DNA of 64,000 nucleotides, from IMG/VR virus record IMGVR_UViG_3300024239_000011, positions 16,303-80,302 of that record; one strand, 5' to 3'. The stretch comes from a virus. Both the position numbers and the translations under genes were made by a program. Shown piece by piece: positions 9,850 to 56,472 of this stretch; the stretch's first letter is position 1, and each line of letters begins with the position of its first letter. A model generated the notes under the pieces. That model searched no databases. It worked only from the letters and a program-made list of their open reading frames with translations, and was not told the origin of the DNA.

Positions 9850-10572
9850 ATGCAGAGTAATACAAAGGTGGATGGTAAATCTACCATCCAGGCGTTTGAC
9901 GAAGGTTTGCGTCGTTTTTTGATCAACGTATACAATCTGATGGCGGTGGCGGTTGGGCTGACCGGTATTACCGCCTACGGTCTGGCGCAGAACCCAGAAC
10001 TGGTCAAGGCGATGTTCGATTCGATCATCCCCATGATTTTCTTCTTCGTTCTACCATTTGTCCTGCTTTTTGCCCTCAATGGCGAGCGGGCGCGTAAACG
10101 ATCCCGTGCCACTAATCTGGTACTGTTTGCCCTGTTTGCAGTTTCCATGGGAATCCTGTCGAGTGCCACTGCACTGGTGTATCCAGGGGTGATGGTTGCC
10201 AAGGCATTTCTCGTGTCAGTCGCAGTATTCGCGGGGGCGAGCCTGTACGGCTATACGACCAAAGCCGATCTGACTTCCGTGGGCAGTTTCTTGGTCATTG
10301 GTTTATGGGGTCTGATCTTTGCAAGCGTTGTCAACCTGTTCCTCGGTTCCACCCTGATGGAATTTGTCATTTCGGTCGCTACTGTGATCGTTTTCACCGG
10401 ACTGACTGCGTATGATACCCAGAAGATCAAGGAAACCTATTGCGAAGCCAATGGTTATGACCTATCGCATTATGTGATTATCGCGGCGATGGAACTGTAT
10501 CTCGACTTCCTGAACTTGTTCCTTGCTATCCTGCGCATTTTCGGCATCACGTCGAGCAGTAGCGACGATTAA
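9850..10572 (+). CDS. Bax inhibitor-1/YccA family membrane protein, 240 aa
   Basis: Seven hydrophobic segments span residues ~24-230, with the family pattern TGLTAYDTQKIKETY (~195-209) and an N-terminal FLINVYNLMAVAVGLTGITAYG. BI-1/YccA proteins are inner-membrane proteins linked to ion leak and to FtsH/HflBKC quality control. The length fits the family. GAGGGGAATAACCC before the ATG supplies the ribosome site. It is followed by a terminator and stands alone. A phage copy may protect the membrane or restrain FtsH, but this is inference. Confidence 0.88.
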   Translation: MQSNTKVDGKSTIQAFDEGLRRFLINVYNLMAVAVGLTGITAYGLAQNPELVKAMFDSIIPMIFFFVLPFVLLFALNGERARKRSRATNLVLFALFAVSMGILSSATALVYPGVMVAKAFLVSVAVFAGASLYGYTTKADLTSVGSFLVIGLWGLIFASVVNLFLGSTLMEFVISVATVIVFTGLTAYDTQKIKETYCEANGYDLSHYVIIAAMELYLDFLNLFLAILRIFGITSSSSDD

Positions 10573-10595
10573 TTGTCGTCGCAGTGAAAGAAAGA

Positions 10596-10621
10596 AAAGG
10601 CGGGAGTAATATCCCGCCTTT
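10596..10621. terminator. intrinsic terminator
   Basis: AAAGGCGGGA / TCCCGCCTTT stem after the BI-1 gene. Confidence 0.7.
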
Positions 10622-10634
10622 CGTTTTAGTGGTA

Positions 10635-10663
10635 TTGACAATGTTTGCTCGGGAAGATAGTAT
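10635..10663 (+). promoter_or_regulatory. sigma70-type promoter
   Basis: TTGACA, 17 nt, TAGTAT, 23 nt before the ATG at 10687. Confidence 0.75.
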
Positions 10664-10686
10664 TCCATGAGGTATGGAGACAAACC

Positions 10687-10917
10687 ATGGATATCCAATA
10701 CCCCGTCATTGACGTGGAAATCCCCGACAATCTGACCACGCTGCTGGAAAATCTGCAATTGCTTGCGGAATCCACAACATTTCCAATGATCATGTCGGTT
10801 GGGGGCAACCTTCATGGCGTGATCAAGGATAAAGAAGCTCTGGTTTGGTTTGAAATGGGGATGCGCCAGATGTGGAAAATCCTCTGCGAGAGGGACGATA
10901 TCAATGAAACTGTCTGA
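10687..10917 (+). CDS. hypothetical protein, 76 aa
   Basis: No family recognised. GGAGA lies before ATG 10687. Acidic, with a hydrophobic centre. The end overlaps the next gene by 14 nt, so the two are coupled. Confidence 0.65.
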   Translation: MDIQYPVIDVEIPDNLTTLLENLQLLAESTTFPMIMSVGGNLHGVIKDKEALVWFEMGMRQMWKILCERDDINETV

Positions 10918-11383
10918 CAAACAAATTCAGCGTCTTCTTCAATTTGGCGCTGCCCAATCGGTGGAAAATCCGCTGGGGTATATGTCCAGCGTCACCGACC
11001 GGTCGTTGCTGAAACTCGGCTTGATCGAGGTCGAAGAAACTCGGATGCGCTTTGGTGGACCCGGTGCCATCGGACGTGCGATGATGACGGTCAAAGTGGG
11101 CAAGCTGACCCCAGCCGGGCATCGCTATCTGGGGGATTGCGGGTTTGCTCCATTCCCCAATGAAGAACGGTTCCTGGGGAAACGGCGGGTCGGTTACTGC
11201 GCAGAACATTATCTGCCGTTTATTGCCTGTCTCGCTAAGGGCTGGGTGGAAATCACCGAGCGCACAATTCAACCACAAGATTGGGTTAAATGGAAAAAAA
11301 CCAAAGCTGGTCGGGATGCCATGAAGATCGAACGCAGTCCGGAGGAAATTAACTTGATCAATTCTGTGATGCCGAATGAGTAG
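10904..11383 (+). CDS. hypothetical protein, 159 aa
   Basis: No family recognised. The N-terminal part (MKLSDKQIQRLLQFGAAQSV...LLKLGLIEVEE...KLTPAGHRYLGD) has the shape of a winged helix-turn-helix with 'LTPAGxRYL', as in many phage and bacterial regulators. ATG 10904 lies inside the previous gene and follows GAGAGG. It ends before a terminator at 11417-11448. Confidence 0.65.
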   Translation: MKLSDKQIQRLLQFGAAQSVENPLGYMSSVTDRSLLKLGLIEVEETRMRFGGPGAIGRAMMTVKVGKLTPAGHRYLGDCGFAPFPNEERFLGKRRVGYCAEHYLPFIACLAKGWVEITERTIQPQDWVKWKKTKAGRDAMKIERSPEEINLINSVMPNE

Positions 11384-51454: not shown

Positions 51455-51907
51455 TTATAAATTACCAGCGCGAATGCGATCCCGAATTGACATCAATCGT
51501 GAACAGAATTCTTTTGTTGTGAGAATTGTTTCTGTGTAAACCGTATGCCCAATGTCATGTGTCAGATTTTCGTCTCCGGTTGCAAGCAACGCTTTACGAA
51601 AATCTTCAACTTTTGCCAATGCTTCATATGCGCGGTCAAGAAGGATTTGATAGTCTACTCCGTCGCGCCGCAATGCTTTGCCTTTCCAGTACAGCATACC
51701 GGTCTTTTGCCAATCCCGGTTCGACCGTTTTTTAGCTGTCCACCCGGTCAATCTGCATACAAGCCGTTGTTCTTCCTGATCTTTGTAGGGCAGGCTTTGA
51801 AGGAAACCTTCCATACTGGCGCATAAAACTCCATCCACCTCGAAACGATGCGCGGCGAAGTTTGAAAGCTTATTTAACGGGTAGGTACCGGTACTGAGAA
51901 TATCCAT
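51455..51907 (-). CDS. NADAR/YbiA-like protein, 150 aa
   Basis: TYPLNKLSNFAAHRFEVDG, SMEGFLQSLPYKDQEEQ, TGWTAKKRSNRDWQ and AYEALAKVEDFRKALLATGD follow the NADAR pattern ('LSNF...F..DG....S.EG..Q..K', later 'L...F...L..TG...L'). NADAR proteins act on ADP-ribose linked to nucleobases or related N-glycosides, and some remove ADP-ribose from DNA guanine. ATG 51907 is chosen because the family begins there. It is 18 nt upstream of the WYL fusion gene. Confidence 0.85.
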   Translation of the reverse strand: MDILSTGTYPLNKLSNFAAHRFEVDGVLCASMEGFLQSLPYKDQEEQRLVCRLTGWTAKKRSNRDWQKTGMLYWKGKALRRDGVDYQILLDRAYEALAKVEDFRKALLATGDENLTHDIGHTVYTETILTTKEFCSRLMSIRDRIRAGNL

Positions 51908-51949
51908 ATGAATAGAATATTTCCTACTCGCGAAAGTGTCAAAAACATT

Positions 51950-51978
51950 TTGACCACATATGCGGTTTAGCTTACCAT
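51950..51978 (+). promoter_or_regulatory. sigma70-type promoter for fliM-fliN
   Basis: TTGACC, 17 nt, TACCAT, 55 nt before ATG 52034. Confidence 0.5.
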
Positions 51979-52033: not shown

Positions 52034-53359
52034 ATGACCGTCAAATCCCATCACGATGACGATGATGAGCCAACGATGGAAGATATTCTGACAAGCATTC
52101 GGCGTGTCCTGACCGAAGACGATGACGATGTGTTTCAAGAAAAACCAACCGCACACGATGATATCGACGCGATGTTTTCTGAAAAAATTCCACAATCTTC
52201 GACGGGGTGCCGTGGCAGCGACGACGAAGAAGCTCTCATGCGTGAATGGGCGGCAATGGCAGGGCGCAACGAACCGGATGAACCGGATGAGAATGATACC
52301 GATGGCATGGCAGCCGAATGGGAAGCCATGCTCGGTGGTTGTGATGGGGATTGCGAACATTGCGATGACAACACCCCCATGGAGTCCACCCGAGTGTTAA
52401 ATCAAGACGAAATCGATTCGCTTCTAGGATTCGATGACGACCATGGGCGCGGTGACAATATGTCTGGTATACAGTGTATTCTCAATTCCGCCCTTGTGTC
52501 ATACGAACGACTTCCCATGCTGGAAGTGGTATGTGATCGTTTAGTGCGTACATTATCTACATCCTTGCGGAATTTCTTCAACGATAACGTCGAAGTGTCG
52601 CTGGACAACATTCTGTCGCTTCGTTTCGGCGACTATCTGAACTCGATTCCGCTGCCTGCCATGCTGGCGGTATTCAAAGCCGAAGAATGGGACAATCACG
52701 GTCTATTGACCATCGATTCGTCGCTGATCTACTCAACGGTCGATGTGCTGCTGGGTGGTCGTCGCGGCACGGCGGCTATGCGCATTGAAGGTCGCCCTTA
52801 CACCACCATCGAGCGTGCCTTGGTAGAACGCATGGTGCATGTCGTAATGTCGGAAATGTCTACGGCTTTCGATCCGGTGTCACCCGTAACGTTTCGTCTT
52901 GACCGGATGGAAACCAATCCGCGCTTTGCCGCCATCTCACGTCCCAATAATGCGGTAATTGTGGTCAAATTGCGCATTGACATGCAAGATCGGGGCGGGC
53001 GCATGGAATTGCTATTGCCCTATGCTACCCTAGAACCTATCCGCGAATTATTGCTTCAACATTTCATGGGAGAAAAATTTGGTCGCGACTCGATCTGGGA
53101 AACCCACTTAGCCGAAGAACTATGGAAAAGCGAGATTGAAGCTGAGGTCGTGGTTGCGGAAGCTAAATCAACTCTTAACACGATACTCAATTTGAAAGTT
53201 GGGGATACGTTAGACCTTGGTCGTCGCCGCCCACATTATAAAATGGTTTGCTCGAATGTCGTGGTCGGGCACTGCGTCAACAGTAATACCGATGATAAAG
53301 ATGACATCATGGGCATGACTGATGTTTCGGTCGTCACCCTCTTCCCGAAAGGTAATTAG
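52034..53359 (+). CDS. fliM: phage FliM, flagellar motor switch protein, with PopZ-like N-terminal motif, 441 aa
   Basis: EPTMEDILTSIRRVLTEDDDD (12-32, in part) resembles the N-terminal motif of PopZ/DUF2497. Two EWxAM motifs follow (REWAAMAG, AEWEAMLGG), then VLNQDEIDSLLGF (121-133), the CheY-P-binding motif. The FliM middle domain runs from YERLPMLEVVCDRL (~157) to ~345, including NILSLRFGDYLNS and GEKFGRDSIWETHL. The C-terminal SpoA domain (~365-440) binds FliN. It is close to Rhodospirillales FliM, but with a longer acidic start. All parts needed for the C-ring are present. AAGGA precedes the ATG. Confidence 0.93.
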   Translation: MTVKSHHDDDDEPTMEDILTSIRRVLTEDDDDVFQEKPTAHDDIDAMFSEKIPQSSTGCRGSDDEEALMREWAAMAGRNEPDEPDENDTDGMAAEWEAMLGGCDGDCEHCDDNTPMESTRVLNQDEIDSLLGFDDDHGRGDNMSGIQCILNSALVSYERLPMLEVVCDRLVRTLSTSLRNFFNDNVEVSLDNILSLRFGDYLNSIPLPAMLAVFKAEEWDNHGLLTIDSSLIYSTVDVLLGGRRGTAAMRIEGRPYTTIERALVERMVHVVMSEMSTAFDPVSPVTFRLDRMETNPRFAAISRPNNAVIVVKLRIDMQDRGGRMELLLPYATLEPIRELLLQHFMGEKFGRDSIWETHLAEELWKSEIEAEVVVAEAKSTLNTILNLKVGDTLDLGRRRPHYKMVCSNVVVGHCVNSNTDDKDDIMGMTDVSVVTLFPKGN

Positions 53360-53360
53360 T

Positions 53361-53657
53361 ATGGATGATTTCGATATGGCTGATGTTAAGCCAGCCCCGG
53401 AACGAATCACGGCGAAACATCTGGAAGCTGTTTACGATATTCCAGTAACCGTGCGGGCAGTCCTCGGTAAAGCAACTCTACAAGTGAACCAGCTTCTCAA
53501 GCTTGGACGCGGTGCAGTCATTGAGATTGACCGCAAGGTTGGTGAGGCAGTGGATATTTACGTCAATGACCGGTTAGTCGCTCGTGGTGAAGTGGTCGTG
53601 GTGGAAGATCGCCTGGGCATCACTATGACGGAAATCATCAAGACGGATCGCGATTAA
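53361..53657 (+). CDS. fliN: phage FliN, flagellar motor switch protein, 98 aa
   Basis: VYDIPVTVRAVLGKATLQVNQ, LLKLGRGAVIEIDRKVGEAVD and RLVARGEVVVVEDRLGITMTEII form a complete FliN SpoA domain. The N-terminal extension is shorter than in host FliN. It follows fliM by 1 nt and overlaps the next gene by one base (TAATGA), so the three are translated together. FliN and FliM form the C-ring that sets rotation direction. Confidence 0.93.
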   Translation: MDDFDMADVKPAPERITAKHLEAVYDIPVTVRAVLGKATLQVNQLLKLGRGAVIEIDRKVGEAVDIYVNDRLVARGEVVVVEDRLGITMTEIIKTDRD

Positions 53658-53884
53658 TGACAGATGGTATCTATGACGTTTCATTGGAAGCTATGGTGAT
53701 CCTGGGCACCGCCACACTTCCCATTTCGCAACTTCTTAAACTCGGTCGCGGCGCCATCATCGAGCTTGATCGCAAAGTCAATGACCCCGTTGATGTGGTG
53801 ATCAACAACAAAACCGTGGCAAAAGCCGAAGTGGTGGTTATTGAACACAATCTGGGTATTACCATCACTGAGATGCTGAAGTAA
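53657..53884 (+). CDS. second FliN-like SpoA-domain protein, 75 aa
   Basis: LEAMVILGTATLPISQLLKLG, RGAIIELDRKVNDPVDVVI and KAEVVVIEHNLGITITEML is a bare SpoA domain, about 60% identical by eye to the FliN just upstream. It lacks any N-terminal extension. It could take part in a FliN heterotetramer or cap it. It ends at a terminator. Confidence 0.88.
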   Translation: MTDGIYDVSLEAMVILGTATLPISQLLKLGRGAIIELDRKVNDPVDVVINNKTVAKAEVVVIEHNLGITITEMLK

Positions 53885-53885
53885 A

Positions 53886-53917
53886 AAAGAAGCCCCATTA
53901 GTACGGGGCTTCTTTTT
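53886..53917. terminator. intrinsic terminator
   Basis: AAAGAAGCCCC / GGGGCTTCTTT stem followed by TT; ends the fliM-fliN unit. Confidence 0.8.
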
Positions 53918-54706: not shown

Positions 54707-55206
54707 TTTTTTACCTGTGCAGCCAGTGCCTCAACTGCTTGATGCATCCGAATAAGGTCATTCTCCAACTTAGCAAACCCAGGATGAGGGACAAATTGCG
54801 GGGGTGGGGGTAATGTGGGTGGGGCATTGATTGTTATCGGTACTGTCGGGGCGGGCGGTGGTGTATTCGGCTGTACGATCACCGGGGCGCGTTCTACCGG
54901 GGCAATTTTTACCACATCCACCTTCCCAATGGGGACCAGTGGTTGAACTACAATTGTAGTAGTGTTTGGTTTCACGTTGGGGGGTATTGGCACCACTTTG
55001 ACCAACGGAACTGTACCGGGGTTTGGCGAAACCACTTGTTGCGGTGATTCTGTTCCAAACACCGAAGAACCGGCAACCAGCGCCACAATGATGGCACTGA
55101 TCATAAAGACCATACCACTAAAATTACGCAATTGGTTAGACGCCGACACGCGGAAAACGACGAACGCCATAATTGCCGCGATGGTAATCAGGGTGAGGAT
55201 GCCCAT
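54703..55206 (-). CDS. membrane protein with Pro-rich extension, 167 aa
   Basis: Two hydrophobic segments (LTLITIAAIMAFVVF, ~3-17; MVFMISAIIVALVAGSSVF, ~32-50) anchor it. A long Pro/Val/Thr-rich spacer follows to ~140, then a C-terminal helix (LENDLIRMHQAVEALAAQ). It has the shape of a small spanin- or TonB-like spacer protein that crosses the periplasm. It sits in the TrpRS/TelA block. Function unknown. Confidence 0.6.
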   Translation of the reverse strand: MGILTLITIAAIMAFVVFRVSASNQLRNFSGMVFMISAIIVALVAGSSVFGTESPQQVVSPNPGTVPLVKVVPIPPNVKPNTTTIVVQPLVPIGKVDVVKIAPVERAPVIVQPNTPPPAPTVPITINAPPTLPPPPQFVPHPGFAKLENDLIRMHQAVEALAAQVKK

Positions 55207-56363
55207 TAGCGCATCCCCACTGCCTGATATACCTGATTCATTGTCTGCTGAGCAATGGTATCCACCTGCGCAGCACCCGTGGCAAGATGAGCATCGACTA
55301 CTTCCGGATGAGCGATGTATTCCCGCATGCGCTTCCCAATGGGAACAATTACGTCCACCAATGCATCAGTAACCGCAGGCTTTAATTTCCCAAAGCCCTG
55401 ACCACCGAATTGGGCACAAGCTTCATCTAACGTCATCCCCCGAAGAACCGCGTAGATTGTCATAAGGTTCTTGGCACCAAGCCGACCTTCCAATCCTACT
55501 GCCTCACCGGGCAATAGATCGGCATCCGTGGTTGCCCTCTTGATTTTCTTGGCGATTTGGTCGGCAGTGTCCGTCAGGAAAACAACTTCCTCTTCCGTTT
55601 CCATGGTGGACTTGGACATCTTCCGATCCGGATACCGCAGCGACATAATACGGGCACCGGTTTCGCTGATGATATCCTGGGGAACCGGGAAAATATCCCC
55701 GAACTGATGATTGAAAGACCGCACGATCTGGCGTGCAAGCTGAAGGTGCTGCACTTGGTCATCACCCACGGGAACATGGGTCGCCTTGTACAGCAGGATG
55801 TCAGCAGCCATCAGCACTGGGTACATATACAAACCGGCACCGATGCTTTCGCTCTGAGTGTTCTCGTAAGCGTCAAGAATTTCGATGGCTTCCGCGCGAC
55901 GTTGTTCATCGGTGCGGGTATCGTCAAACCCTTCCTGCTGGTATAGGGTATTGCTGATGGACAGACCCGCTTCGAGAAGTTGTTCTAACTTCTCGTCCAC
56001 CGAAATACCAGCTTTCGCTTTGAACTGAGTCATTCGATTCAACCAGCCCATCCGCGCCTGGGTTGTTAATACCCAGGCAAGCTGGGAATGACCGGCGACG
56101 CGGCTTTGTTGGAAGATCGAAGACCGCTCGGGATCGACACCGCATGCCAGATAGGCAGCCACCGTGGAACGGATGCTGTTACGCAGCACCGCTGGATTTT
56201 GCGGTACCGTGATGGCGTGAAGGTCTACGACGCAATAGATGCATTCGTGGTGATCTTGCAAGTCCACCCACTGCTTCAGAGCGCCCAGATAGTTGCCAAG
56301 GTGCAGAATTCCGCTCTGTGTCGCCGTGCCGGTAGGCTGAACTCCGGAAAATACCCTACCCAT
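55206..56363 (-). CDS. trpS: tryptophanyl-tRNA synthetase, 385 aa
   Basis: A class I synthetase with GILHLGNYLGALKQW (HIGH region, ~18-32), DLHAIT, VAGHSQLAWVL, MGWLNRMTQFK, LMAADILLYKATHVPVGDDQ, and RKMSKST (KMSKS). Two insertions stand out: TATQSG next to the HIGH motif, and about 50 residues (~120-170) between QFKAKAG and the ESIGAGLYMYPV segment, where normal TrpRS has only ~10. GGGGTAGAG precedes ATG 56363. It charges tRNA-Trp; an own copy would keep Trp codons readable. Confidence 0.92.
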   Translation of the reverse strand: MGRVFSGVQPTGTATQSGILHLGNYLGALKQWVDLQDHHECIYCVVDLHAITVPQNPAVLRNSIRSTVAAYLACGVDPERSSIFQQSRVAGHSQLAWVLTTQARMGWLNRMTQFKAKAGISVDEKLEQLLEAGLSISNTLYQQEGFDDTRTDEQRRAEAIEILDAYENTQSESIGAGLYMYPVLMAADILLYKATHVPVGDDQVQHLQLARQIVRSFNHQFGDIFPVPQDIISETGARIMSLRYPDRKMSKSTMETEEEVVFLTDTADQIAKKIKRATTDADLLPGEAVGLEGRLGAKNLMTIYAVLRGMTLDEACAQFGGQGFGKLKPAVTDALVDVIVPIGKRMREYIAHPEVVDAHLATGAAQVDTIAQQTMNQVYQAVGMR

Positions 56364-56472
56364 TATCTCTACCCCGATTATGCATAAACTCATCAACAGG
56401 ATGGCAGCCAAAACCGACTTTGGCAAGTTCTTTGCGGTATGGATGCCATCCAACGTTGATCGGGTGGAAGTA

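Follow-up and report, generated by a model that had tools for sequence, protein, structure and literature searches.

A contractile-tailed phage carries flagellar switch genes and cut-down motor proteins that may act on the motor of its host

Viral control of bacterial swimming is known chiefly from effects via receptors and gene regulation. Direct intervention at the flagellar motor has been described for proteins such as the EpsE clutch, a binding protein that breaks the contact between FliG and MotA (PMC3000366), and the CheY-like Cle proteins, which act on the Caulobacter C-ring (PMC7534056); at the rotor–stator contact itself, R90 and E98 of MotA meet D289 and R281 of FliG (PMC7564593). 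The polar organising protein PopZ is also tied to motility: without it, M. gryphiswaldense is impaired in motility and aerotaxis (PMC6414705), and according to work cited there, popZ mutants of other alphaproteobacteria fail to position FliG and FliM correctly. NMR mapping places the CpdR site of Caulobacter PopZ at residues E7-E23, in agreement with RcdA and ChpT (PMC11519897; see also PMC9926476). The nearest report found describes a nanoarchaeal virus with one putative flagellar motor protein (PMC10829341), and the open-access literature (subscription papers and preprints were outside the scope) yielded neither a phage switch complex nor a phage protein using PopZ. Here we describe a phage with genes for rotor, stator and switch proteins, which suggest, as far as their sequences can, that the virus controls or stops the swimming of its host during infection by a route without earlier description.

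The phage record and its FliM–FliN–FliN operon

The window analysed here is a stretch of 64,000 nucleotides, bases 16303-80302 of the record IMGVR_UViG_3300024239_000011 (543,035 bases and possibly incomplete), and gene calls outside it were made in this analysis. The record is a contractile-tailed phage of 543 kb: it contains two tail-sheath genes (phrog_10581, E 4e-275; phrog_12249, E 6e-37) and codes for DNA polymerase parts, DNA ligase and virion proteins. Its closest named relatives by one conserved gene are LR745206, LR756502 and LR756504, uncultured huge phages of 634-642 kb. The phage has 65 tRNA genes and, at window 55206-56453 (minus strand), a gene for a class Ib (Trp/Tyr-type) tRNA synthetase.

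As originally predicted, a single operon at window 52034-53884 encodes FliM together with two FliN proteins (Table 1): the curated cut-offs are passed, one base separates the FliM and FliN-A genes, and FliN-A and FliN-B overlap by one base (TAATG). A Pfam search of the whole record returned exactly three FliMN_C matches, all at these three genes. The trio also sits, as had been claimed, among phage genes, with a gp30.3-like neighbour and a phage-like composition. The description of its domains as complete holds for the FliM middle domain and both FliNs; the C-terminal domain of FliM has diverged, and its match, although above the Pfam cut-off, is partial. The early promoter proposed for the trio is a weak candidate: the site deviates from the consensus at three of 12 positions, and promoter-like sites number 7 against 3.6 ± 2.0 in shuffles.

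Table 1. Positions of the motor genes, the domains and motifs of FliM, and the elements flanking the operon
Feature	Position	Strand	Basis
T4 gp30.3-like phage neighbour, divergent from the trio	window 51455..51919	-	PF08010 E 7.2e-47, phrog_652; start inferred at internal ATG
Sigma-70-like promoter candidate, TTGACC-17-TACCAT	window 51950..51978	+	consensus match 9/12
FliM, 441 aa, ATG start	window 52034-53359	+	PF02154 E 8.7e-66 (221.9 bits); FliMN_C E 1.9e-7; TIGR01397 275.8 bits vs cut-off 219.6
PopZ helix-1 recognition motif EPTMEDILTSIRRVLTE, FliM residues 12-28	window 52067..52117	+	NCBIfam PopZ_fam (NF052660) E 8.5e-7, model positions 1-37
Second PopZ-type motif DDIDAMF, FliM residues 42-48	window 52157..52177	+	host PopZ: QDDIDALF
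CheY-binding-type motif RVLNQDEIDSLLGF, FliM residues 120-133	window 52391..52432	+	identical to host; residues 119-134 16/16
FliM middle domain, FliG-binding, LLGGRRG motif	window 52484..53053	+	PF02154 residues 151-340; 87% identical to host
FliM C-terminal FliN-like domain, strongly diverged	window 53114..53356	+	FliMN_C model 1-55 of 73, above Pfam cut-off
FliN-A, 98 aa, ATG at 53361	window 53361-53657	+	TIGR02480 101.5 bits vs cut-off 84.05
FliN-B, 75 aa, core domain only, without N-terminal region	window 53657-53884	+	TIGR02480 87.4 bits vs cut-off 84.05
Intrinsic-terminator-like stem-loop, ends operon	window 53884..53917	+	sequence
Second CheY-like protein	record 127374-127766	-	receiver; CheY best NCBIfam model, below strict cut-off
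Anchored FliG_C, 173 aa: N-terminal membrane helix and FliG C-terminal torque domain	record 151826-152347	+	domain search
FliG, full-length	record 306724-307740	-	three Pfam domains; equivalog score 273.8 vs cut-off 226.7
CheY	record 323789-324172	+	receiver; CheY best NCBIfam model, below strict cut-off
MotA relative, 150 aa	record 324172-324624	+	directly after CheY with start-stop overlap

An alignment scan of 2.9 million viral contigs found no other FliM, and no credible phage FliM was present in 50,697 phage records; together with the open-access literature, this agrees with the statement that no described phage system built on FliM and FliN is known. Single-query scans of the viral contigs with FliM, FliN and the cytoplasmic MotA returned no relatives, a MotA without transmembrane helices was found neither in any other viral contig nor credibly in the phage records, and the proposed search of related phages for the trio yielded no relative carrying the set. 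With a FliG alignment, the scan of viral contigs gave two loci. One is a bacterial-looking fliE-fliF-fliG cluster; the other is a lone full-length FliG, 33% identical, at 9941-11017 of the unrelated viral contig IMGVR_UViG_3300035696_000277 (18,970 bases), where it adjoins an HNH endonuclease and other phage-family genes with no other flagellar gene in the stretch covered. Matches to FliM, FliG or FliN in MW495066, MT835480 and some short contigs labelled as Listeria or Salmonella phage probably represent bacterial DNA and were not counted, the neighbourhood having been read for MW495066 only. That record (MW495066.1, Microcystis phage MaAM05) is labelled a complete phage genome, and the stretch read holds glyS, fabI, murJ, pomA and fliM and looks bacterial, so its FliM is not to be counted as a phage gene.

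Further motor genes and their donors

A wider set was sought by comparing the phage genes locally with flagellar proteins of E. coli and the host and by searching them for the receiver family. It is here, and at the PopZ-type head of FliM, that the original inventory, correct for the trio, had missed genes and features: the record also encodes a full-length FliG, two CheY proteins, a MotA relative and a membrane-anchored FliG C-terminal domain. Both CheYs retain D12, D13, D57, T87, Y106 and K109, and their sole tie to CheB and CheA is the shared receiver domain. The MotA relative aligns with positions 71-148 and 234-281 of the model, with 1-70 and 149-233 missing, and thus joins host residues ~65-150 to ~240-286, that is the cytoplasmic loop to the tail; no hydrophobic segment was found in it, and all four transmembrane helices of a MotA stator are gone. 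Phage FliG has the five charged torque residues as in the host, and the anchored FliG_C keeps K264, D289 and R297 (E. coli numbering) with two of the five altered. Identity to the host is 92% and 85% in the M and C domains of FliG and 58% in the N domain, for which 17 bacterial FliGs give 62-98%; the N domain faces the MS ring.

Among the record's genes there is no relative of FliF, FliH, FliI, FlhB, FliP, MotB, CheA, CheW, CheB, CheR, CheZ or a receptor, in a search that covered small alphaproteobacteria-specific motility genes in part. Lacking export, basal-body, receptor and CheA/W/B/R/Z genes, the set is therefore confined to the rotor–stator–switch interface. Several other genes in the record may be listed alongside it. 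A third receiver-domain protein (155 aa, record 464174-464641, minus strand; Response_reg E 2.5e-7) looks degenerate, its first acidic pair being absent. Two c-di-GMP enzymes, a PAS-GGDEF protein at record 345859-347175 (plus strand) and a GGDEF-EAL protein at 373456-374631 (minus strand), could bear on motility. A sigma-70-family factor at record 223099-223887 (plus strand) has regions 2 and 4 and a weak FliA match (E 3.6e-8), and possibly acts on promoters of the phage itself or of flagellar type. The gene just upstream of that for the anchored FliG_C (record 151302-151673, minus strand) encodes a 123-aa protein that matches a host ORF adjoining the host fliM cluster (E 9e-31).

Judged by protein identity and placement, which for FliM and FliG resolves to Rhodospirillales and no finer, the donors of these genes are Magnetospirillum-like Rhodospirillales, and it is from the donors that the host is deduced. 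In a scan of 84,980 species genomes the best FliM segments, 72-77% identical, came from Magnetospirillum, its relatives and uncultured Rhodospirillaceae. Plasmid-borne Azospirillum FliM copies reach 46-50%, which displaces the Azospirillum-like host first proposed in favour of a Magnetospirillum-like donor. As reference host we used one complete Magnetospirillum-like genome, placed by its kinship to Magnetospirillum sulfuroxidans, to which identity is 78% for FliG, 77.5% for FliM (residues 59-395), 72% for CheY, 71% for FliN-A and 62% for FliN-B; in that genome the five donor genes lie at dispersed loci. The two FliN genes of the reference host are likewise distant from each other. FliN-A groups with the host paralog A, encoded near fliG, and FliN-B is nested, on a long branch, in the orphan paralog B (62% identical against 49% to paralog A); on identity and tree, an origin of FliN-B by duplication of FliN-A within the phage was rejected, with caution in view of that branch. 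The host orphan itself (L191:7423-7746) lies away from all flagellar clusters and seems, among the genomes searched, confined to Magnetospirillum-like ones. For the five close genes (FliG, FliM, FliN-A, FliN-B and CheY) dN is 0.16-0.29 and dS ranges from 1.0 to saturation, with 36-54% of fourfold sites still identical; since dN lies far below dS, selection has kept the proteins.

Faces of FliM and its PopZ-type head

Phage FliM consists of a phage-specific PopZ-type head (residues 1-57) followed by a Magnetospirillum-type FliM (residues 58-441). The first motif of the head, whose counterpart in the host PopZ reads EPSMEDILASIRRILSE, corresponds to the client-site residues E7-E23 of PopZ. Within the record, PopZ matches are restricted to this head, and against the full PopZ family FliM scores 31.6 bits (cut-off 125), the match stopping at position 40. 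Because the oligomerisation part of PopZ is absent from phage FliM, its head is expected to bind clients and not to form a hub. The head motif was absent from every N-terminus that could be read at 80 bacterial FliM loci, and across 199 Rhodospirillales genomes the matches to FliM start at about query residue 45-62, the few earlier starts having been checked or being weak; for the genomes examined, a PopZ–FliM fusion pre-existing in bacteria is thus rejected.

Beyond the head, the N-terminal CheY-binding motif of the EIDALL type reads VLNQDEIDSLLGF, the same as in the host, and of the 130 alignment columns in which 23 bacterial FliMs do not vary, phage FliM keeps 128. Its C domain is 27% identical to that of the host, a value that does not fall below 32% in 51 bacterial FliMs of comparable middle domain. 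Taken face by face, this conservation implies that the phage proteins keep the faces touching each other, CheY and the stator, and that the faces anchoring them in the host ring have been loosened. AlphaFold models were of low confidence (pLDDT 46 for FliM and 50 for the cytoplasmic MotA) and too poor for use.

Competing readings and comparison with known motor regulators

With phage-borne genes coding for C-ring proteins, interference with the host motor switch, as the original prediction suggested, appears the most economical reading. We put the probability that FliM, FliN-A and FliN-B, together with FliG, CheY, the soluble MotA and the anchored FliG_C, are competitive mimics of rotor, stator and switch that stop or reset rotation at roughly 0.45, the highest among the readings considered. 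Expressed during infection, the phage proteins would mimic the contact faces between FliM and FliG, FliG and MotA, and CheY and FliM, and would compete for them: the soluble MotA would occupy FliG, the anchored FliG_C would occupy stators at the membrane, and phage FliM, FliN and FliG with CheY would occupy or remodel the switch. The PopZ-type head may bind proteins of the polar PopZ hub, either placing FliM at the flagellated pole or keeping the hub clients occupied, and the net effect could be a flagellar rotation that is uncoupled, stopped or reset, much as EpsE cuts FliG from MotA. As the motor genes do not lie in one operon, we infer their joint function. Against interference, a full-length FliG with a recognisable N domain might, alongside a normal CheY, serve just as well to build a working rotor, and two of the five torque residues of the anchored FliG_C are altered. 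It is with some doubt, then, that we propose in fuller terms a phage commanding the host motor with its own switch and decoy parts, comprising a polar-hub-tagged FliM, two FliNs, FliG, CheY, a soluble stator mimic and an anchored rotor mimic.

The main rival, which we consider less likely, is a working replacement, in which phage FliG, FliM and FliN take the place of their counterparts in the host C-ring and, together with phage CheY, impose a new bias or allow continued swimming, for instance for the spread of progeny. The CheY-binding motif unchanged at 16/16 positions, FliG–FliM domains 87-92% identical to the host, the intact torque residues of FliG, a complete CheY and the representation of both host FliN paralogs would all suit a functional switch. 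The FliG N and FliM C domains, however, have drifted further than in any comparable bacterium, FliN-B is without its N-terminal region, and neither a membrane-free MotA nor an isolated FliG_C can form part of a motor; both have the look of competitors.

An improbable reading makes FliM mainly a carrier that displays the PopZ motif either at the pole or within an assembly of FliM and FliN, titrating CpdR, RcdA and ChpT and altering the CtrA pathway or polarity. The head is indeed found in no examined bacterial FliM, it has the two conserved motifs of PopZ but no oligomerisation region, and its first motif falls on the client site (PMC11519897). That motif nevertheless amounts to 17 residues on a full, conserved FliM; ParA and ParB, sought as PopZ-linked partners, were not found in the phage, and subversion of the hub would leave FliG, CheY, MotA and FliG_C unexplained. 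Passive cargo is more improbable again: very large phages carry many host genes, and a single genome is available, but functionless genes would hardly show a dN far below dS and third positions fully adapted to the phage, nor would independent acquisitions be expected to converge on the same motor interface or MotA to lose precisely its four membrane helices. An assembly chimera or inclusion of bacterial DNA, named at the outset as the finding that would overturn the prediction, is excluded in practice. Other records that carry flagellar genes under a phage label, MW495066 among them, do have a bacterial look, but nothing in this one favours it: codon usage is of phage type, third-position GC being 0.49-0.55 in the trio, 0.53 on average in the phage and 0.78-0.84 in the donor genes; divergence from the donors is strong; motor genes occupy four further places (five in all); and the record contains gp30.3, DNA polymerase, both tail-sheath genes and 65 tRNAs.

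Should the interference reading be true, this would be the first known case of a virus steering a rotary motor by means of motor proteins, its copies of rotor, stator and switch together with cut-down forms amounting to a direct take-over of a molecular motor, and motor control would be tied to the PopZ cell-pole hub. The soluble MotA and the anchored FliG_C would then be ready-made dominant-negative tools for torque and switching. The set also raises the question of why an infected cell should stop or change its swimming, be it to save energy, to evade flagellum-dependent rival phages or for dispersal.

Set beside known systems, the phage genes resemble the auxiliary motility genes of other phages in being host genes kept by a phage, and differ in that the nanoarchaeal virus has one putative flagellar motor protein (PMC10829341) whereas here there is a switch set. 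With the Magnetospirillum-like C-ring and switch (FliG-FliM-FliN and CheY) they share 62-78% identity, the CheY motif and conserved FliG–FliM domains, in contrast to which stand the PopZ head of FliM, the diverged FliG N and FliM C domains, the truncated MotA and the anchored FliG_C. From PopZ, phage FliM has the N-terminal recognition helix EPxMEDILxSIRR and the DDIDA(L/M)F motif, but fused to FliM and without the C-terminal oligomerisation helices. The MotA relative has both cytoplasmic segments of the stator and, unlike it, no membrane helix, so that no ion channel is possible. By analogy, the closest parallel in working would be the EpsE clutch of Bacillus subtilis and the Cle proteins of Caulobacter, in which motor output is altered or cut by a protein bound to the rotor or the switch; EpsE has no sequence relation to the phage proteins, which would act as several rotor and stator mimics, all of them encoded by the phage.
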